Shown: piece after piece, positions 6,760 through 36,282 of the stretch
Layout: every line of letters starts with the position of its first letter
How positions within the stretch are numbered: the first letter of the stretch is position 1
Virus record (IMG/VR): IMGVR_UViG_3300037882_001697
Location: 1 to 37,569 of that record
DNA from: a virus
Length of the DNA stretch: 37,569 bases
Direction: 5' to 3' (one strand)
Program-made: the position numbers and the translations under genes
The notes under the pieces: model-generated
Seen by the model: only the letters and a program-made list of their open reading frames with translations
Told to the model about the DNA's origin: nothing
Database searches by the model: none

Positions 6760-8254
6760 TTATGTACGCCCCACAGATAGCCACGCGCACCGGGTCAGCG
6801 ATACTCACTTTGAACGTCCATGAATCAGATTTACCCAGCTTGCGCCAGATCGCGCGTGCCTTATATTTCCCCACCGCGCCAATGCTTGCTTTATAGGCAG
6901 GCGACCATGTTTTTCCGAGGTCATTGCTGATTTCCAGCCAGCAGTAAGCATCTTCTCCAACGTGACGGGTGGCGACATCCTCAATGCTATATAGTTCTTC
7001 CCGCAGTCCCTGCCCATACTCGAAATCTATTTGCAGCGATTTAACGCGGATTTCTTCACCCTCATCGTAGATATGCGTAAAAATGCGCTGACGCGGAATG
7101 GTGACCACTTCACGGTCTGAATCGCTGTTATCTTCAAGATAATAATCCTGAGTCATTTCATAGAGGCTTACGCGGTCATCCTCTATGACGAGATGTGTAT
7201 CATGGGCATACATATGGAATTTTGCCCGCCACTGCACCCACTCACCGGAATCGTCGGCGAATGATACGCGCTCATGCCATAACCCTGTGGCGGTATCATA
7301 TACCCATGCGGAATCCATGCCGCCGTCGGTGAGTACATAGAATAAATGCCCACCGTCCTGATACGCCCAGCCGCGGCAACTGGCTAAATCCGTTGCCTGA
7401 CTAAGCGCATATTCAACGGCGAAGGTGGAAACGCGCTTAGCAGCATACCCCACCGCTTTATAAATAATGCCCTTGCCGTATTTATCCTGACCCAGCCAGA
7501 ATATTGTATTATCCAGATCGACCACAGACAGCGGCGCAAGACATCCGGTCTGCATCTTCGCGCCTTCAATGCGGGAAAATGGGAATGTAGCATCGCCGGT
7601 ATTATACCAGACCTCCGTCGTGCGGCTGCCAAGCAGCCATAACTGTCCGTAAGCACTGTATGGCCTCACAATCGGGTCAGGACTAGATTCTGCGGTTGCA
7701 AAATCCAGCGCCGCCCATGAGAGGCCATCGTTCAGGCCGGAAATATAAAACTCGCCTGTCCCCGTCCTGTTGGCTATGAAATAGCCATCCTGAAAGGTCA
7801 CGGTTGATACAAATGGCAGGTCAGCGTCCGTCACCAGCGCCAGTGTGTTGGTAGCATAGGTGAATATGTAAATAAACACGCCGTCACAGATAGCCATCTG
7901 CGTATGGCTTTCCGCTACCGTACAAGGTGTGGAATCTTCAGGTATGACCGTGCTATTAATCAGTGTTTTTGAAAATACACCCGCACCGCTTTTGAATATC
8001 TCAAAGAACAATTCACCAGCTAACATAAACGCCCGGCCATTGGCGCTTGCAAACATCATGCGGTTGAATTTGCCAAAATAACTGTATTCACCAACAGCAA
8101 GCACCCTATCCATCCCCGGCGTACCATATAGCGCGACAGGCTCCTTACCCTGTTTTGTTTCGTCAATGACGGGGTATAAATTCACCGTGCGCTGCGCGTC
8201 AAACGGTATGGAACGTTCCTGATATGAGCCGCCGAAAAAGCCGGGTAATTTCAT
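6752..8254 (-). CDS. P22 gp10-like packaged-DNA stabilisation / tail hub protein
   Basis: The product is 500 residues, close to the 472 of P22 gp10. The N-terminus MKLPGFFGGSYQERSIPFDA followed by QRTVNLYPVIDE and ALYGTPGMDRV is the family signature. The rest is repeated beta-propeller-like WLLGSRTTEVWYNTG, IFWLGQDKYGKG and WVYDTATGLWHERVSF blades. In P22 the protein forms a hexameric ring below gp4 that plugs the portal and carries the needle and spikes. It overlaps the gp4-like gene by one base (TAATG). Confidence 0.88.
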   Translation of the reverse strand: MKLPGFFGGSYQERSIPFDAQRTVNLYPVIDETKQGKEPVALYGTPGMDRVLAVGEYSYFGKFNRMMFASANGRAFMLAGELFFEIFKSGAGVFSKTLINSTVIPEDSTPCTVAESHTQMAICDGVFIYIFTYATNTLALVTDADLPFVSTVTFQDGYFIANRTGTGEFYISGLNDGLSWAALDFATAESSPDPIVRPYSAYGQLWLLGSRTTEVWYNTGDATFPFSRIEGAKMQTGCLAPLSVVDLDNTIFWLGQDKYGKGIIYKAVGYAAKRVSTFAVEYALSQATDLASCRGWAYQDGGHLFYVLTDGGMDSAWVYDTATGLWHERVSFADDSGEWVQWRAKFHMYAHDTHLVIEDDRVSLYEMTQDYYLEDNSDSDREVVTIPRQRIFTHIYDEGEEIRVKSLQIDFEYGQGLREELYSIEDVATRHVGEDAYCWLEISNDLGKTWSPAYKASIGAVGKYKARAIWRKLGKSDSWTFKVSIADPVRVAICGAYINA

Positions 8255-8946
8255 TACCAGTACCCCGAATAAATATCTCCTGTGCGGATAGGGTCAGGCG
8301 AGTATTTCATAGGCCGTGCGCGCGCTGCATTAAGGCGTATCATGGCCAGCGATTCCGTTGCGCCTTTTAGCAGCATATTGCTGGGTTCCTCATCGTACTC
8401 AGGGGCAAGCCTGAGCGCCAGATTGAATGCAAGGGCGTCATCCGTGCCGGGAGGCATGTCAACCGTTGCGGCGAGCGATGCGAACGCGGTGATTACCTTT
8501 TCGCTCTGTAGCTTCAGTGTGGCCGCCGTGCCAAGTTCGGGGTAAAACCTGATTTTCCCTATGGGATAGCCGTTGTCGAATGTGATATAGTCAGGAATAT
8601 TCGACGCGATGGACTTAAACGATATATCCTGCTGATACTGCTGATCGGTCAGCACGGTAAGCGGGTAATCCACGCTCCCGATATTAATGGCCGCCGCGCT
8701 GATTTTCAGCGGCAGCACTGTATTAATCGTCTGCCCTGAACCTATCGTATAAACGGAGGCCGCCGAAAGGCTGAAGCTCTCCCACGTAAGCCCGTGTATG
8801 CTGAGCGTGGTGTTACTCCACGATGCCATCATACCATTGAGCGCGACAAGGCCGTCAGCAGCCTCATCAGCACCCAATGATTCTGATTTGCGGACAACAC
8901 CAAGCAGGCGACAGGCGCGGGTGATGATGTCTAGTGCAGTGGTCAT
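8254..8946 (-). CDS. P22 gp4-like tail accessory / head completion protein
   Basis: The product is 230 residues. Residues 1-55 (TALDIITRACRLLGVV, GADEAADGLVALNGMMASW) are the classic start of gp4-like tail accessory factors. The C-terminus has the usual DDALAFNLALRLAPEYDEEPS segment. In P22, gp4 binds the portal after packaging and provides the platform for gp10. The protein is somewhat longer than P22 gp4, because its middle beta region is longer. No lysozyme-type catalytic motif is evident. Confidence 0.85.
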   Translation of the reverse strand: MTTALDIITRACRLLGVVRKSESLGADEAADGLVALNGMMASWSNTTLSIHGLTWESFSLSAASVYTIGSGQTINTVLPLKISAAAINIGSVDYPLTVLTDQQYQQDISFKSIASNIPDYITFDNGYPIGKIRFYPELGTAATLKLQSEKVITAFASLAATVDMPPGTDDALAFNLALRLAPEYDEEPSNMLLKGATESLAMIRLNAARARPMKYSPDPIRTGDIYSGYW

Positions 8947-26413: not shown

Positions 26414-26764
26414 ATGGGTATTTTAACCACTGAACAGATTGCGAAAGTGACACACGAAGCGAACCGTGCTTACTGTGAATCCATTGGAGATAACAGCCAG
26501 CCAGCATGGGAAAGCGCACCTGACTGGCAAAAGGACAGCGCACGTAAGGGCGTGGAGTTTAATCTTGCAAATCCTGATGCCCCTGCGTCGGCAAGTCATG
26601 ATTCATGGCTTAAAGAAAAGACCGAAACAGGCTGGAAATATGGCGAGGTCAAAGACCCCGAAAAGAAAGAGCATCCGTGCTTTGTTCCGTACGAGCAATT
26701 GCCGAAAGAACAGCAACGCAAAGACGCGCTATTTAAGGCCGTTGTCGCGGCATTGGCAGCATAA
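26414..26764 (+). CDS. RyR-domain protein
   Basis: The product is 116 residues with a GAAGGAG Shine-Dalgarno. Residues 5-95 match the RyR repeat known from ryanodine receptors and found in phages and bacteria. EQIAKVTHEANRAYCESIGD is followed by SQPAWESAPDWQKDSARKGV and by ASHDSWLKEKTETGWKYGEV. The terminal HPCFVPYEQLPKEQQRKDAL segment completes it. Bacterial RyR domains are suspected to sense or bind ligands, but no function is settled. The structured RNA begins seven bases after its stop. Confidence 0.85.
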   Translation: MGILTTEQIAKVTHEANRAYCESIGDNSQPAWESAPDWQKDSARKGVEFNLANPDAPASASHDSWLKEKTETGWKYGEVKDPEKKEHPCFVPYEQLPKEQQRKDALFKAVVAALAA

Positions 26765-26771
26765 CAACATG

Positions 26772-26869
26772 GGGTGTGCGGGCGTACCGGTAAGTACGCT
26801 GATTTATGCGCGAGGCATAAATTAATTGTGGTGACAATCAAGCCGGTGGAAACCCGGCCACACCCGCCA
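26772..26869 (+). ncRNA. tRNA-like cloverleaf RNA with encoded CCA
   Basis: The 98 bases fold exactly like a class II tRNA. The seven-base-pair acceptor stem is GGGTGTG (26772-26778) with CACACCC (26859-26865). Two linker bases precede a D arm closed by GGCG/CGCT whose loop contains GGTAA. A single base then precedes the third arm ATTTATGC/GCATAAAT (26802-26809, 26815-26822). The variable arm is ATTGT-GGTG-ACAAT (26825-26838). The T arm has a five-base-pair stem GCCGG/CCGGC with a seven-base loop, directly abutting the acceptor. The discriminator is G, followed by CCA. Odd points: the third arm is eight base pairs with a five-base loop, so no normal anticodon loop exists; the T loop is TGGAAAC, not TTCRANN; position 8 is C. 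It may be a decayed tRNA or a functional mimic. Confidence 0.5.
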
Positions 26870-26891
26870 ATATTCCCGAACGGTAATTTTT

Positions 26892-27287
26892 ATGACTGAT
26901 AAACCAATGACCACACCGACCATGCCCATTATAGCAAAAACGCGTGAAATGCACGCTGCCGGGTTTAACGATGCACGTATAGCCAGCGCATTGCAATTTT
27001 CTAAAGACACCATACAGGCAAAACGCACCGCCCTTGGGTTGCCATCTAATATCAGGGCGGTAGGGGCATTGACCGCTGCCAGCGAGCGTGCCGCGATTGT
27101 TGTTCATATACCGCCGCCCTTGCGTGTAGACCGTGACAAGGCACTTAAAGACCACTTTGCTGAACGTATATACATCAACGGCGAGTATCGCTTGGACGGG
27201 CGCTTAATTACGCAAACCGCCGCAATCATCGCCATGCAAAAAGAGCGTATTGACCAACGCAGGCCAACGGTGAGGTTTTACGTATGA
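26892..27287 (+). CDS. Helix-turn-helix phage protein
   Basis: The product is 131 residues. Residues about 12-55 (IIAKTREMHAAGFNDARIAS, then ALQFSKDTIQAKRTALGLPS) form a homeodomain-type helix-turn-helix with a typical recognition helix. Residues about 85-131 form a second helical segment (YINGEYRLDGRLITQTAAII). It could be a regulator or a DNA-binding replication accessory protein. It directly follows the tRNA-like RNA. No strong Shine-Dalgarno is visible. Confidence 0.65.
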   Translation: MTDKPMTTPTMPIIAKTREMHAAGFNDARIASALQFSKDTIQAKRTALGLPSNIRAVGALTAASERAAIVVHIPPPLRVDRDKALKDHFAERIYINGEYRLDGRLITQTAAIIAMQKERIDQRRPTVRFYV

Positions 27288-27508
27288 CAGCGCAGATATT
27301 GGCATTTCCGATACGAAACGAAAACGAACGCATAATGGTGGTCGCCAGCGTAGCCATTGGCATGCACTGCACCACGACACAGGCAGCGTATCGGTTTATC
27401 AGGGATTTGTGGCTGGACGGGATGATAAGCAGGGAAATCGCCGCCGCACTATTCTTGCGCCACGATATACCCGTTAAATGGCATGACAAACCGGAGGGGG
27501 CGGCGTGA
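27284..27508 (+). CDS. 74-residue unknown protein
   Basis: The product reads MTAQILAFPIRNENERIMVV, followed by TTQAAYRFIRDLWLDGMISR and EIAAALFLRHDIPVKW. It is helical, and the pair of helices near the C-terminus could be a helix-turn-helix. It has ATGA and GTGA overlaps with its neighbours. No family is recognised. Confidence 0.55.
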   Translation: MTAQILAFPIRNENERIMVVASVAIGMHCTTTQAAYRFIRDLWLDGMISREIAAALFLRHDIPVKWHDKPEGAA

Positions 27509-27555
27509 GCTATAAACGCAAGGAAATCATAGGCGAGTGCGTTGAGGTGACGGGC

Positions 27556-28164
27556 TTAAGTCATCCTCTCAGCCCTCATATGACAAGACTGGCAAAGCCC
27601 TATCAGGTTTTCCCGATTGTTGGCAGCGGCATGGCTATCAAAGTGACGAAATGGTGTAATGTGATGGACTGGAAGCGACTTTCCGACATGTTTTCTGCAA
27701 TGTCCGCAACAACCATCCTGTTCGCCAACAACTTGTTCCCGCGCCTCAAGCCACCCTTTCCCGCGATAGGTGGTTATACCCCCAACGTAACAAGGGGATT
27801 TTTCAGACACAAACACACCGGAATGTTCAAAGCACCTCCGAGAACAGAATTTAGCCAGCCCATTTTGGCGAATGAGCCACGGCTTTTGTGTGAACGACCC
27901 CTTGCAATGCTGGCATGTTCGCTCAACACCATTCTTCCAATTATGGCTTTTGTCACCAGTAAGCCCTTTAGGGAAGGCATTAGCCGGACGCTTCCCTGCG
28001 CGGAATCTATTGCCGATAAGGTGAGGCTTGTCCCCTACGTTGAGAAATTTTCTAGCCAGAAATCGCCCCTTGCACTCAGAAGAGCAAAAGCGGGATTTTT
28101 GGGCGCGGTATGGCTTGACCTTGTAGGTCGCGTTACATTCTTGGCAAATGAGATTTATCAACAT
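27556..28164 (-). CDS. HNH homing endonuclease
   Basis: The product is 202 residues and reads against the methyltransferase remnants. It has two zinc fingers in the N-terminal half (Cys7, Cys10, Cys27, Cys31 and Cys84, Cys87, Cys107, Cys111). The C-terminal HNH domain has a CGHC knuckle (153-155), LPVHHITPFRHFDSH (His167, His168), NNRENLIGLC and a CQSCH closing motif (191-195). Proteins of this kind cut a target gene and copy themselves into it. There is no Shine-Dalgarno; a promoter ends six bases before the ATG, suggesting a leaderless mRNA. The first finger resembles that of the intein-borne nuclease at 29930-30517. Confidence 0.85.
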   Translation of the reverse strand: MLINLICQECNATYKVKPYRAQKSRFCSSECKGRFLARKFLNVGDKPHLIGNRFRAGKRPANAFPKGLTGDKSHNWKNGVERTCQHCKGSFTQKPWLIRQNGLAKFCSRRCFEHSGVFVSEKSPCYVGGITTYRGKGWLEAREQVVGEQDGCCGHCRKHVGKSLPVHHITPFRHFDSHAAANNRENLIGLCQSCHMRAERMT

Positions 28165-28170
28165 ATTTCA

Positions 28171-28198
28171 TATATAACATACTATTGCTCAATGTCAA
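28171..28198 (-). promoter_or_regulatory. Promoter of the HNH gene (leaderless)
   Basis: On the minus strand TTGACA (28198-28193) and TATATA (28176-28171) are 16 bases apart. The ATG is only six bases after the -10 box, so transcription should start at or next to the A of the ATG. The -35 box lies right at the junction with the methyltransferase remnant. Confidence 0.6.
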
Positions 28199-28360
28199 TG
28201 GGCAGCGGCACAACCCTTGTAGCTTGCGCCAGAATGGGCAGGAAGGGAATCGGCATAGAGCTAGAGCCTAAATACTTCGACATCGCCTGTAAACGGGTCG
28301 AGGAAGCCTATAAGCAGGGCAGCCTGTTTATACCAGCGCCAAAACCAGAGCAAACCGAGC

Positions 28361-28744
28361 TTATACTATCAGCCCCTGCGCCTCATCCTCAGACCTGACA
28401 ACACCAGCGATGCCGCCAGAGCGGCGCACCTGAGTAATAAAATTTTCTTGATCGGCATTCGCACGTCCCGTGGCGGTTTTTACTTCCAGGGCAGTGAAAA
28501 CAGCTATTTGCCGCCCCACGTCCGCCTGAGTCACCGTGTAGGGATGCCAGCCGATGAGGTCAGACGAGCCGGGACATAACCCCATGCGTATCTTACGCGG
28601 GTTTATCAGCGTAAGGTCACCGTTCGCGTGGTGCCGTTCTATGCCCTGCCACGCCCACCCGGTGTTCTGCCGAAATAGGCGCGTGCCGAGCTTACTGAGG
28701 TGCTTCATGATGCGGTTTGATATATTCGTTTCAGCGATTGCCAT
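28361..28744 (-). CDS. VRR-NUC nuclease
   Basis: The product is 127 residues of the PD-(D/E)xK superfamily. LCPGSSDLIGWHP supplies the catalytic Asp, and FTALEVKTATGRANADQENF supplies the ExK motif and conserved Gln. The final VRRSGGIAGVVRSEDEA is the VRR signature. Such nucleases act on branched or flap DNA and are often paired with a helicase in phages. Its start lies one base after the helicase stop, consistent with a helicase-nuclease pair. The last 38 bases overlap the convergent methyltransferase remnant. Confidence 0.88.
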   Translation of the reverse strand: MAIAETNISNRIMKHLSKLGTRLFRQNTGWAWQGIERHHANGDLTLINPRKIRMGLCPGSSDLIGWHPYTVTQADVGRQIAVFTALEVKTATGRANADQENFITQVRRSGGIAGVVRSEDEAQGLIV

Positions 28745-28745
28745 T

Positions 28746-31157
28746 TTATTTCCTCGGTGTATTAACCGCCTTCGTTAAAAATGCGTCAAAACTGAGGGGC
28801 TTCGCGTAAACCCCTGACCGTGACACCTGAGCGGCGCGCATAGTAAACTGTTTCGCAGCCCATTGCTCTGCCTTACCTGGCGGCATACCGGATTTATATG
28901 CCTTCTCTATCAATTCTTCCAGCGGCAACTCTAATTGTACGGTGTGGCGCGTGGGGTTTTCAGCCCTCATTTTATCAACGGCTTCCCGCGTCATTTCCTT
29001 TAGGGAGCCGTCCACCTCGTCCAGTATGCGCGATTTCACCTCATAAACGTGATGACACTCAGGACATTCCTTGATGTGTGGCGCGTGGCAGGAAAAGCAC
29101 ATCGGGCAGCGGCGCATAGCTTCCAGCGTTTCTTCTTCGCCACGCTTCTTTTTAATCCTGCCTTTCAGTGACCACTCACGCGGCGAGTCTGGCAGGCCGT
29201 GGCGCATGATGTTTCCAGCGTGATCGAGAAAGATTGCTGGCTCAGATTTCGGCCTCAATCCCCTGCCGAGCTGTTGCAGGTGCAGGCTCAGACTCAGTGT
29301 AGGCCGTCCCTGAATCACGCACTCAATCGGCACATCACGCCCTGCGATGGCCGAGAGGTCAAAGCCCTCACCGAATAGATCGACGTTGAATATAACCGGC
29401 GTCACACCGCTGGCAAAATCCATGATATGCGCCCTGCGCTGTTCTGGCGGGGTGTTTGCGTCAACGTGCGCCGCTGGTATGCCGTTTACGTTAAATTCAT
29501 CCACCAGCGCCTTGCTGTGTTTGATAGAGGCGGCAAAGCCTATGGTGCGTTTTCCGAGCGCCTTTTGTTTCCACTGCCCCACGAAATCGGAAATGATAGC
29601 CCGGCGCATCATGACTTCTTCGACTTCATCCTGCACGAAATCGCCTGACCGCTCGTGAATTTCTGACATATCAGGGTTTGCCGGGCAGAATGCGCGGTAT
29701 TTACTCAGAAAACCGTGTTCAATGAGCCATTCGACATCCACGCCCTGCACCATGTGATCGAAAAAGTCAGATAATCCCTCACCTGATAATCTCCACGGGG
29801 TAGCGGTCAGTCCGACAATGCGGGTGCCGCCTGCCCGCGCCCACTTCACGATTTTAGCCCAGCCCGCCGCACTGGTGTGATGGCAATTGTGTACCAGTAC
29901 ACCGTTTGCGAAGTAGTTATGATTTTTTTCTACTTCGACATTGTAGACAAAACCGTCTGGACACAAGCCTCCAAATTTTCCGTCACCTGTTTGTTTGTGA
30001 ACCTCAACACTTTCCACCCAACATTGTTTAAAAATATTTCCTTGCGCCTGTCCTGTTTCTGTCTTTCCAGTGAACAGTGAGAAAAGCCATCCACTTCTAT
30101 TGCCATTTTTAAATGATGGTTCGCTATATCCAGCTTGTAATGAGTTGGCCGATAGCCGCCACCGGTTGTTAAAATATATTCCATCGGCCAGCCAAGCGCA
30201 GATGCCAATAACTGCTGTGCGACACTTGGCGGCTTTCCGTTTCCACCGCGAACCGTCGGCTTCCATTGCATTGTGCGTAGCGTCGTTGAAACCTTTGCTC
30301 GTACATCCTCGCGCTTCATTGGATTGTTTTTCTTCATGCGCGCGCTGGCATGGGTTTTGTTGGTTTTTGCCATTGTTTCCGACGATAAGCGCCGACAGAA
30401 TGTTTTTGAACATTCCCTTGAGCAGAACACACCCAGACCGGCTTTCAGTCTGTCCCGATGGTATTTTGTTACTATCGGAGTATCCCTTGCACACTCCTTG
30501 CAATTTGCTGCGTTCATTTATTCGCCTTTCTGTGATGCAATACACCATGCTTCCGCTATCAAGGCTTACCGCTGGAATATAGTTTTGTCCATTAAAAAAT
30601 GGGTGGTTTGGCGTACAGGTTATTTTTTTGCCATTTGAAAGTGTAATGGTTACAAGGTTTTTTGGGATATTTTTGTATAGGCGCATTATGCGTCTTTTTT
30701 CAACGCGCTGGCGGTCATGATTGTATGAGCTTACATAATCTCCGATACGGAGAGTTTCTATCGGCGTGCCATCAATAAGTGTACCTGCCGGGAAGCATTC
30801 GTCAACTATCAATAACTTAGGCGGTTTTATTTTTTCCAGCCGGTTGCCGAGCGTTCCCACGGTGGCAATACGCACGCGCATACGGGGGTTATAGTGATTT
30901 CCGGCTGCAATGAATGTATGCGGGATGCCTGATTTCTCGAATGTCTTGCTTGTCTGGGTGAGTAATTCCCGGCGATGCACCATGAATATAACTTCAAAGC
31001 CCTTGCTGTGCGATGTGCCAACCATGTAGGCAGCCATGACCGTTTTACCCGCGCCGGTTGGCGAGCGCATCAATACAGACTGATGCACGCGCAGCGCCTC
31101 ACGCATTTCGTTAATAAGGGTTTTCTGATCGTCACGTAATTTAAATTCACTACTCAC
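28746..31157 (-). CDS. SF2 DEAD/DEAH helicase, interrupted by an intein
   Basis: I place the start at the GTG at 31157, eight bases inside the upstream gene; a TTG at 31184 would add nine residues. Numbered from the TTG, motif I is SPTGAGKT (41-48), motif III LTATPWR (459-465) and motif VI QQLGRGLRP. Motif II (DECH) is split by an intein between Glu129 and the next codon. The spliced sequence is LLIVDECHHTSAAGW, restoring the ATPase motif. The mature helicase has about 500 residues and ends with a four-cysteine zinc finger (CPMC, CPEC). It resembles RadD-like phage helicases and probably works with the VRR-NUC nuclease in recombination or replication. Confidence 0.9.
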   Translation of the reverse strand: MSSEFKLRDDQKTLINEMREALRVHQSVLMRSPTGAGKTVMAAYMVGTSHSKGFEVIFMVHRRELLTQTSKTFEKSGIPHTFIAAGNHYNPRMRVRIATVGTLGNRLEKIKPPKLLIVDECFPAGTLIDGTPIETLRIGDYVSSYNHDRQRVEKRRIMRLYKNIPKNLVTITLSNGKKITCTPNHPFFNGQNYIPAVSLDSGSMVYCITERRINERSKLQGVCKGYSDSNKIPSGQTESRSGCVLLKGMFKNILSALIVGNNGKNQQNPCQRAHEEKQSNEARGCTSKGFNDATHNAMEADGSRWKRKAAKCRTAVIGICAWLADGIYFNNRWRLSANSLQAGYSEPSFKNGNRSGWLFSLFTGKTETGQAQGNIFKQCWVESVEVHKQTGDGKFGGLCPDGFVYNVEVEKNHNYFANGVLVHNCHHTSAAGWAKIVKWARAGGTRIVGLTATPWRLSGEGLSDFFDHMVQGVDVEWLIEHGFLSKYRAFCPANPDMSEIHERSGDFVQDEVEEVMMRRAIISDFVGQWKQKALGKRTIGFAASIKHSKALVDEFNVNGIPAAHVDANTPPEQRRAHIMDFASGVTPVIFNVDLFGEGFDLSAIAGRDVPIECVIQGRPTLSLSLHLQQLGRGLRPKSEPAIFLDHAGNIMRHGLPDSPREWSLKGRIKKKRGEEETLEAMRRCPMCFSCHAPHIKECPECHHVYEVKSRILDEVDGSLKEMTREAVDKMRAENPTRHTVQLELPLEELIEKAYKSGMPPGKAEQWAAKQFTMRAAQVSRSGVYAKPLSFDAFLTKAVNTPRK
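29886..30797 (-). mobile_element. Intein in the helicase DECH box
   Basis: This 304-residue in-frame insert starts with Cys (CFPAGTLIDGTPIETLRIGD, block A), has block B TCTPNHPFF with the TxxH motif, and ends with VYNVEVEKNHNYFANGVLVH then Asn (blocks F and G). The penultimate His and terminal Asn are present and the +1 residue is Cys, so all residues needed for splicing are there. In the splicing frame there is no LAGLIDADG or HNH motif. About 180 residues between B and F are linker-like and lie over a nuclease gene read in another frame. Confidence 0.92.
29930..30517 (-). CDS. Homing endonuclease nested out of frame in the intein
   Basis: The product is 195 residues, entirely inside the intein DNA on the same strand but in a different frame. 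The ATG at 30517 has an AGAAAGG Shine-Dalgarno seven bases upstream, so it can be translated on its own. Residues 6-36 form a CKEC...CSREC zinc finger. Residues 125-175 match the Vsr-like EDxHD nucleases: YKLDIANHHLKMAIEVDGFS with Asp130, Glu141, Asp143 and His147, then a DRRKEIFLNNVGWKVLRFTN strand-helix. Its last eight codons overlap the start of intein block F. It probably cuts intein-free helicase genes and so spreads the intein. Known relatives occur beside split inteins; here the intein is unsplit. Confidence 0.85.
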   Translation of the reverse strand: MNAANCKECARDTPIVTKYHRDRLKAGLGVFCSRECSKTFCRRLSSETMAKTNKTHASARMKKNNPMKREDVRAKVSTTLRTMQWKPTVRGGNGKPPSVAQQLLASALGWPMEYILTTGGGYRPTHYKLDIANHHLKMAIEVDGFSHCSLERQKQDRRKEIFLNNVGWKVLRFTNKQVTENLEACVQTVLSTMSK

Positions 31158-31299
31158 GATGCGCCCCGCAATACCACAGGCCAAGGCGGGTTTTCGCCTG
31201 CGTTTTATCCCCTGCCGCCAGCGATGCCAGTGCGCCGCTGAAATTAACTTCCTTGCCGAAATAGGCGGCCTCTCCGCACGTTTCGCATATATGCAGCAT
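31150..31299 (-). CDS. Small Cys-rich protein
   Basis: The frame is open from 31431, but that part lies inside the repressor gene. I use the ATG at 31299, 28 bases after the repressor stop, giving 49 residues. It reads MLHICETCGEAAYFGKEVNF and ends GLWYCGAHRE. CETC plus the CGAH tail make a plausible four-ligand zinc site. The Shine-Dalgarno is poor. It overlaps the helicase GTG by eight bases, suggesting coupled translation. Confidence 0.5.
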   Translation of the reverse strand: MLHICETCGEAAYFGKEVNFSGALASLAAGDKTQAKTRLGLWYCGAHRE

Positions 31300-32458: not shown

Positions 32459-33355
32459 ATGAACGACACACCAGAAGGCGGAAGAGTTAGCAAGGGGCAA
32501 TTGATGCTTCAGCGCAAGCAGGAGATTGCGAACTCAATGCAGGAATTTCAGCGAACGCTCCCGGCATCCATACCGGCGGAAAAGTTCGTGCGTACCGTGC
32601 AGACGGCGATTCAGCTAAATCCCGATATTGCCTATGCCACCCGTGATTCAGTGATTAATGCTTGTATGAAGGCCGCTGCCGATGGCCTGATTCTTGACGG
32701 ACGCGAGGCGGTGCTGAATATCTATAACAGCAAGGTGAAAACCGCGAGCGGCGGTGAGGAATGGCAGAAAACCGCTGTATATATCCCGATGGTTACCGGG
32801 ATTTTCAAGCGCATCCGCAATTCTGGCGAGGTGTCACTGGTTAATGCGTTCATCGTGCATAAGAACGACATATTCAAGCGCACCCTTGGGCTGGAGATGA
32901 CTCTGACGCATGAGCCGAACGACGAAAACCCCGGCGAGGCAGTGGGAGTATATGCCGTATGCCGCTACAAGGACGGAACGGTGGATTATGAATATATGTC
33001 AAAACAACAGGTTTTGCGTATCGGCGATAAGACGAAAAACAAAGACCAATACAGCCCAGAAAAGGGGCAGTCATACGAAGAATGGTGGAGAAAAACCGCT
33101 GTGCGCCGCCTGAGCAAGCGCCTGCCGATGGATTCAGATATACGCAACGTGATACAGCGCATTGATGAGTTGCAGGAGCCGATCTCAGACCCTGAAACGG
33201 GTGAGGTGTTTAAAGAAACACCCGCGCCGAAGAAGCGTGCGCCATATAAGAGGCGTGCTGCGGCTACCGAGGCATTGCAGGAAGAACCCGCCTCAGAGGT
33301 CATTGAAAACGATGAGCCGAGCGTTTCCGATGCTGACGTTGAGGATGTAATTTAA
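32459..33355 (+). CDS. recT: RecT single-strand annealing protein
   Basis: The product is 298 residues with AGGAG upstream. The pattern matches RecT: LPASIPAEKFVRTVQTAIQL and NPDIAYATRDSVINACMKAA, then ADGLILDGREAVLNIYNSKV. It continues with AVYIPMVTGIFKRIRNSGEV and YEEWWRKTAVRRLSKRLPMD. The C-terminal 60 residues are a Pro/Lys linker followed by an acidic tail (ENDEPSVSDADVEDVI), as in proteins that recruit partners such as SSB. It anneals complementary strands in recombination, working with the exonuclease before it. Confidence 0.92.
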   Translation: MNDTPEGGRVSKGQLMLQRKQEIANSMQEFQRTLPASIPAEKFVRTVQTAIQLNPDIAYATRDSVINACMKAAADGLILDGREAVLNIYNSKVKTASGGEEWQKTAVYIPMVTGIFKRIRNSGEVSLVNAFIVHKNDIFKRTLGLEMTLTHEPNDENPGEAVGVYAVCRYKDGTVDYEYMSKQQVLRIGDKTKNKDQYSPEKGQSYEEWWRKTAVRRLSKRLPMDSDIRNVIQRIDELQEPISDPETGEVFKETPAPKKRAPYKRRAAATEALQEEPASEVIENDEPSVSDADVEDVI

Positions 33356-33361
33356 CTTTAT

Positions 33362-33395
33362 GGTGTCCTGCCGGTGTGCGGACTGGCAGGACACC
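33362..33395 (+). promoter_or_regulatory. Strong hairpin after recT
   Basis: GGTGTCCTGCC (33362-33372) pairs perfectly with GGCAGGACACC (33385-33395), an 11-base-pair stem with a 12-base loop. No T run follows on either strand, so it is not a standard terminator. It ends just before the GGGGG ribosome-binding site of the next gene and may set mRNA stability or translation there. Confidence 0.6.
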
Positions 33396-33513
33396 GCCAG
33401 GGGGATTTATGAGGTGTGATTTAATGCGAATGTTCTCAGTTATTTTAATAGCTGTTATCGGCGAAATATCGATAATCGCTGGCGGGGTAATCGCCGGGAT
33501 GTGGGCATGGGAT

Positions 33514-36157: not shown

Positions 36158-36273
36158 TTGACATTTAATGCGCGAAGCCATACAGTTGTTTATCCCAATT
36201 TTGCGGTTGGGATTGTGAAAGCGTTTGGTAGGCTATAGAAGCCCCGCACTGGTTGCACAGTTGTGGGGCTTCT
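36158..36273 (+). ncRNA. Possible small RNA: promoter, hairpin and terminator
   Basis: TTGACA (36158-36163) and TACAGT (36181-36186) are 17 bases apart and no gene follows. A transcript from about 36193 would run roughly 80 bases to the terminator and contain the hairpin ATCCCAA/TTGGGAT (36192-36198, 36207-36213). No open reading frame with a ribosome-binding site is present. It could instead be antisense control of the lysis operon, or a chance promoter match. Confidence 0.35.
36237..36273 (+). terminator. Bidirectional hairpin terminator between opposing operons
   Basis: AGAAGCCCC (36237-36245) pairs with GGGGCTTCT (36265-36273), extended by three inner pairs. It lies between the ends of the rightward recT operon and the leftward lysis operon. 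The T tract is weak in both directions (TGCTTTCT to the right). Confidence 0.65.
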
Positions 36274-36282
36274 GCTTTCTGG

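Follow-up and report, generated by a model that had tools for sequence, protein, structure and literature searches.

A candidate non-decoding class II tRNA mimic between two genes of a 37.6-kb viral contig

The virus contig IMGVR_UViG_3300037882_001697 (37,569 bp; the whole of it was analysed and is referred to as the window) carries at 26772-26869, on the + strand, a 98-nt stretch that folds as a class II tRNA with an encoded CCA end but without an anticodon loop. On balance the RNA appears to be a phage-encoded, non-decoding class II tRNA mimic of serine/leucine shape that would be cut by RNase P from an operon transcript, a reading that is favoured here with modest confidence. Its likeness to a tRNA is probably directed at processing enzymes and does not serve protein making; judged by its letters and predicted fold, the RNA is not a working tRNA. 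It combines a tRNA-like fold, an absence of decoding and a place in a phage genome, as do RNAs of the T4 RNA C and T5 RNA1 kind. The assessment rests on one sequence.

The fold exists, and its pairing is far beyond the level of chance. The minimum free energy structure given by RNAfold is a class II cloverleaf whose five helices comprise 33 pairs (31 Watson-Crick and two G-T) without a mismatch, and its energy of -43.6 kcal/mol compares with -31.2 +/- 3.6 for dinucleotide shuffles (z -3.5; none of 200 was as stable). When the RNA is folded within 700 nt of context, with up to 300 nt of flank on each side, the mean pair probability is 0.58 for the acceptor stem and 0.76-0.99 for the four inner helices. 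The opposite strand also folds (z -4.0), as is expected for stems; the CCA, the GG and the linkers suit the + strand only.

Each of the elements listed in the first-pass annotation is found in its place, both in the sequence and in the RNAfold structure (Table 1). Among the class II features present are a 7-bp acceptor stem, a directly adjoining 5-bp T stem with a seven-base loop, a discriminator and CCA, as well as a long paired variable arm between the third arm and the T arm. The third arm reads GATTTATGC-GCGAG-GCATAAATT. Only the pairing of two arms needed adjustment: the D arm and the third arm had been drawn with six pairs plus a spacer base and with eight pairs, respectively, and both are present, but RNAfold adds a closing G-T pair to each, which gives a D arm of seven pairs with no spacer base and a third arm of nine.

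A loose class II descriptor, consisting of the acceptor, D, third, variable and T arms followed by NCCA, has the tRNA-like RNA as its sole match on the two strands of the window and has no match on either strand of 2.3 Mb of other viral DNA. The class I form of the descriptor finds six genuine-looking tRNAs and one chance match in the 2.3 Mb of viral DNA. Order-2 Markov sequence totalling 160 Mb yields 19 loose matches, none of which exceeds 16 pairs in the inner three arms as against 21 in the tRNA-like RNA.

Covariance models built from 12 tRNA-Leu and from six tRNA-Ser sequences, neither of which includes the window RNA, both select exactly 26772-26869 when run unfiltered on the whole window. 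The RNA ranks first with both ends exact under the tRNA-Leu model (21.7 bits, E 5.5e-4) and under the tRNA-Ser model (24.9 bits, E 1.8e-4), and the runners-up in the window reach approximately 10.5-10.9 bits (E ~0.7). This agreement upholds the original description of a class II tRNA-like RNA with a CCA end and no anticodon loop. ARAGORN, one of the tRNA finders suggested with that description, calls no tRNA or tmRNA gene in the window. With default speed filters the tRNA-Leu model does not report the RNA. The same model reaches at most 11.4 bits on 86 kb of tRNA-free phage DNA, and the tRNA-Ser model finds two places as high on an 81-kb control, namely an ARAGORN-called tRNA-Pro and an adjoining tRNA-like stretch. 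This adjoining stretch (L186, 3572-3654) and its counterpart in the sister copy L187 (3436-3519) lie beside a tRNA-Pro and close to RyR-domain genes at two sites in Paenibacillus bouchesdurhonensis; only the L187 counterpart is called by ARAGORN, as a tRNA-Ala.

The sequence similarity to tRNA-Leu beyond the shared structure is suggestive, not strong. On bacterial genomes, a covariance model of the window RNA alone gives end-to-end matches to tRNA-Leu(TAA) in Shouchella and to tRNA-Leu(GAG) in another genome, with alignments that share variable-arm and T-stem letters (UUG..GUGACAA.C..GCCGGU..AA..CCGGCC), and three further matches of similar strength are not tRNAs. Similarity to tRNA-Leu beyond structure is reached by 2 of 600 pair-keeping randomisations, and 12 of the 600 equal the best similarity to a tRNA of whatever type.

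The RNA is predicted to be unable to decode, because the anticodon arm is a long hairpin with a five-base loop and because core and elbow bases are lost. The anticodon stem of 5 bp and the seven-base loop with U33 that belong to a tRNA are not present. Drawn with a seven-base loop, CGCGAGG, the third arm would centre on CGA, but position 33 is then a G and the loop is closed by pairing. In the core and elbow, G18, G19, T54 and A58 are retained, and C8, T14, G55 and G56 replace the consensus. The usual tRNA contacts are 8-14, 15-48, 18-55 and 19-56, and with these four replacements they are gone. The window RNA scores 20-25 bits, compared with 72-96 for real Leu and Ser tRNAs under their own models, and on account of these scores and of the altered third arm and core it is not classed as a tRNA.

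The likeness to bacterial and phage tRNA-Ser includes the long variable arm, G1-C72, G2-C71, G73 and the CCA, all but the last being tRNA-Ser identity features. The long arm together with G73 fits serine rather than leucine identity rules (PMC9976931). Phage tRNA-Ser(TGA) and tRNA-Ser(GGA) genes with an identical acceptor stem and G73 occur in IMG/VR (L244 and L249). A serine-type parent for the window RNA is plausible from these features. The RNA differs from tRNA-Ser in having no seven-base anticodon loop, no U33, no T-loop TTC and no U8/A14, and in its longer D and third arms. The first-pass annotation suggested that seryl-tRNA synthetase (SerRS) could charge the RNA without decoding; the long arm and G73 suit serine identity, but serylation is unsupported, with U8, A14, R15-Y48, Psi55 and C56 all changed. 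The E. coli SerRS reportedly recognises tRNA-Ser via its tertiary structure (PMC9976931), and because that shape is altered in the window RNA, charging by SerRS appears doubtful. The same annotation's idea of a bait for anticodon nucleases is unlikely, there being no anticodon loop available for cutting.

Table 1. Elements of the tRNA-like RNA and features adjoining or overlapping it in the window
Feature	Position	Strand	Remarks
Whole tRNA-like RNA, 98 nt	26772-26869	+	Minimum free energy fold; best match of the tRNA-Leu and tRNA-Ser models
Acceptor stem, 5' strand, GGGTGTG	26772-26778	+	7/7 Watson-Crick with 26859-26865
Two-base linker CG (positions 8-9), U8 absent	26779-26780	+	Sequence
D-type arm, 6-7 pairs, loop CGGTAA, GG at RNA positions 18-19	26781-26800	+	
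Third arm replacing the anticodon arm, 8-9 pairs, loop GCGAG, without seven-base loop or U33	26801-26823	+	
Variable-arm hairpin ATTGT-GGTG-ACAAT, 5 bp	26825-26838	+	
T arm GCCGG-TGGAAAC-CCGGC; T54 and A58 retained, T55 and C56 lost	26842-26858	+	
Acceptor stem, 3' strand, CACACCC	26859-26865	+	
Discriminator G73 and encoded CCA	26866-26869	+	
Upstream gene, RyR-domain protein (PF02026, phrog_5154)	26414-26764	+	Stop 7 nt 5' of the RNA
Downstream gene, 131 aa, family not recognised	26892-27287	+	Start 22 nt 3' of the RNA; weak Shine-Dalgarno match
41-codon GTG open reading frame over the RNA	GTG 26774 to TGA 26897	+	Weak coding signal

The RNA lies inside a 127-nt gap (26765-26891) between two + strand genes, in a contig of which the assumed gene set covers approximately 90%. 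One strand carries P22-type portal, coat, head-closure and terminase genes, and the other carries primase/helicase, RecT and exonuclease genes. Farther along, a DNA methylase-like gene (27505-28398, +) is reduced to its first residues and the final ~60, its middle being occupied by an antisense HNH endonuclease gene (27556-28164, -). A DEAD/ResIII helicase gene (28746-31184, -) harbours an intein (Intein_splicing domain, aa ~148-433).

No + strand promoter-like or terminator-like site, including a T-run, was found at the tRNA-like RNA, and for this reason it would be co-transcribed with the flanking genes as part of a + strand operon. Host RNase P may then cut at G26772, guided by the 12-bp acceptor/T-stem helix and the 3' GCCA, and 3' trimming would leave a stable, CCA-ended RNA of approximately 98 nt. 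RNase P is able to cleave acceptor-T-stem model hairpins and pairs with the RCCA motif (PMC11143913); of the features of such a substrate, the window RNA has the acceptor/T-stem helix and the 3' RCCA, while the elbow contact G19-C56 is absent. Works cited in PMC11143913 describe RNase P processing of transcripts that are not tRNAs, such as the P1/P7 C4 antisense RNA precursor and a polycistronic mRNA cut by RNase E and then by RNase P. Cleavage within a phage or operon transcript is also the route proposed for the window RNA by analogy, and no sequence relation to these transcripts is claimed.

The function is the least certain step. Since decoding is lost, the use of the RNA would be whatever the acceptor/T/CCA half offers. 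The simplest use may be as an excision point at which the messages of the RyR-domain gene and of the downstream gene are parted and their ends guarded, and a possible product is a free tRNA mimic that would serve as a decoy for acceptor- or CCA-binding factors. A more specific proposal, tentative and on the unlikely side, is that the virus remodelled a serine-type tRNA by replacing the decoding arm and elbow contacts, with the acceptor, T stem, long arm and CCA left in place; the RNA would then engage acceptor-end enzymes (RNase P, SerRS or CCA-directed defence nucleases) and never enter the ribosome.

Relatives were sought through the protein neighbours, three patterns in IMG/VR, BLAST (the RNA stretch against phages and E. 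coli genomes, the neighbourhood against plasmids) and the model of the window RNA alone, which was searched over approximately 1,000 genomes and records. For the RyR-domain gene 80 viral relatives were kept, and the window RNA was not seen in 19 stretches downstream of RyR relatives nor in 36 whole records. Searches of IMG/VR, phages and GTDB genomes with the downstream 131-aa protein gave no relative. A three-loop DNA pattern has no match in IMG/VR. A pattern of the T arm plus CCA has 12 matches there, none of them a clear relative, and a pattern of the acceptor plus CCA has 28 stretches, in which the tRNA-shaped ones are genuine tRNAs or unrelated foldbacks. Over ~960 sampled genomes the window RNA model gave only weak matches, one of them a tRNA-Leu, in a search whose stricter filters and lack of a positive control make it weak evidence of absence.

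A 72-nt stretch after a terminase gene on another viral contig (L175, 4387-4458, +) forms a short cloverleaf that shares the 17-nt T arm and has a TCCA end, and scores 28.8 bits with the window RNA model and 21.9 with the tRNA-Leu model. As a relative it is set aside as a coincidence; it was preselected for its T arm, lies inside a probable 96-aa open reading frame and has no relative. A 167-kb viral contig with a tRNA array (L242; units at 7892-7968 and 8644-8715, both +) includes a tRNA-like unit that ARAGORN does not call and that has the acceptor and T stem of the window RNA (GGGTGTG, GCCGG), and also a tRNA with a two-base 'anticodon'.

Several points weigh against the interpretation as a processed tRNA mimic. 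The searches found no homologue, and hence there is no covariation. As well as the silence of ARAGORN, an Rfam cmscan relaxed to E < 10 still detects no tRNA, and no known Rfam family is matched. Loss of the T-loop and core consensus may prevent formation of the elbow, which RNase P also measures. The RNA was also picked out of much sequence, which weakens the E values of ~1e-4 and means that the chance figures need a discount. An alternative is another structured intergenic or leader RNA, such as a regulator of the downstream gene, in which the tRNA likeness and the CCA would be due to chance. It is unlikely. It accommodates the absence of a tRNA call by either program and the loops without tRNA tertiary bases, and two other intergenic + strand stretches, at 33301 and 36181, fold about as strongly in a sampled sliding z-score scan. 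The weak Shine-Dalgarno match of the downstream gene may leave room for coupling or control by structure, so that the RNA could affect its translation. What this alternative does not account for is that two independent tRNA models set both ends exactly and that the arm order, linkers and spacing match a class II tRNA. It is rather improbable that the fold is functionless, a coincidence over coding DNA for a 41-aa protein. The frame in question (MCGRTGKYADLCARHKLIVVTIKPVETRPHPPIFPNGNFYD), itself a further point against a tRNA mimic, is uninterrupted and ends in overlap with the downstream start. At 0.10 per codon the codon score is ambiguous, lying between that of real genes (0.29 +/- 0.14) and that of open wrong frames (-0.03 +/- 0.16). 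The frame has no Shine-Dalgarno sequence (-1.8 kcal/mol), whereas most window genes have one, and no relative in PHROGs, Pfam or phages (best tblastn E ~3), and chance would have to be stretched far to give 33 perfect pairs. The 41-aa frame has a zinc-knuckle-like appearance (CGRTGKYADLCARHK), but searches matched it to no family and no homologue.

A role as a defence decoy or substitute, in which the RNA is a stable bait for host enzymes whose target, for binding or cutting, is the acceptor/CCA end of tRNAs and not the anticodon, is distinctly improbable. Phage tRNAs do counter tRNA-cleaving defences (PMC11555353), and such baits could matter since Cas12a3 grips the tail, acceptor and T arm (PMC12851939), parts that the window RNA retains; a bait would have to be highly expressed, however, and the promoter search found none belonging to the RNA. 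It is very improbable that the RNA is a decaying phage tRNA-Ser or tRNA-Leu pseudogene, now functionless. Odd tRNA-like units do occur in phage tRNA arrays (L242 and L186/L187), but the phage of the window has no such array, and decay should break stems, whereas all 33 pairs are intact and the helices extended, with the loops and core bases replaced.

Two other hairpins of the window deserve mention. The one at 33362-33399 (+), after recT, is the longest in the window by scan (14 pairs, loop of six), is flush with GCCA in an acceptor-stem-like manner and lies in the region with the strongest sampled fold z-score. The tRNA-Ser model ranks it second (10.9 bits, E 0.66). T5 RNAI likewise ends in GAGCC-GCCA. 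At 36236-36274 (+), in the strongly folded stretch near 36181, a 13-pair GC-rich hairpin is followed by TGCTTTCTGG and may be a terminator.

The putative tRNA mimic resembles T4 RNA C (species 1 RNA) and T5 RNA1, RNA2 and RNA3, which are likewise phage-encoded and have tRNA acceptor/T-arm features; these are stable RNAs whose function is not known. With the tRNA-Ser model T4 rnaC scores 25.9 bits against 24.9 for the window RNA, which is in the same class. The T4 and T5 RNAs lie in tRNA clusters of large phages, whereas the window RNA stands alone in a tRNA-free 37.6-kb record and has a compact five-helix shape unlike theirs. T4 rnaC, T5 RNA1 and RNA2 keep T loops of the TTCGAA or TTCAAC type, and the window RNA has lost the T-loop consensus.

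Judged by analogy, mascRNA is the closest functional analogue. This tRNA mimic is released by RNase P, has a CCA end and a longer anticodon-arm stem with a compact loop, and is not aminoacylated (PMC11693755). Human mascRNA and menRNA share with the window RNA the CCA-ended tRNA mimicry and the longer anticodon-arm-equivalent stem with a compact loop. They differ in being eukaryotic and smaller and in having the CCA added after RNase Z, and there is no homology. They also keep the elbow contacts of the two D-loop guanosines to the T loop, whereas the window RNA has lost the T-loop side.

The tRNA-like stable RNAs of T4- and T5-type phages are annotated without a known function. A compact, lone non-decoding RNA in a tRNA-free phage would separate mimicry from codon supply. 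It is suggested that standard tRNA finders overlook such RNAs, and that unfiltered class II covariance models can find them.
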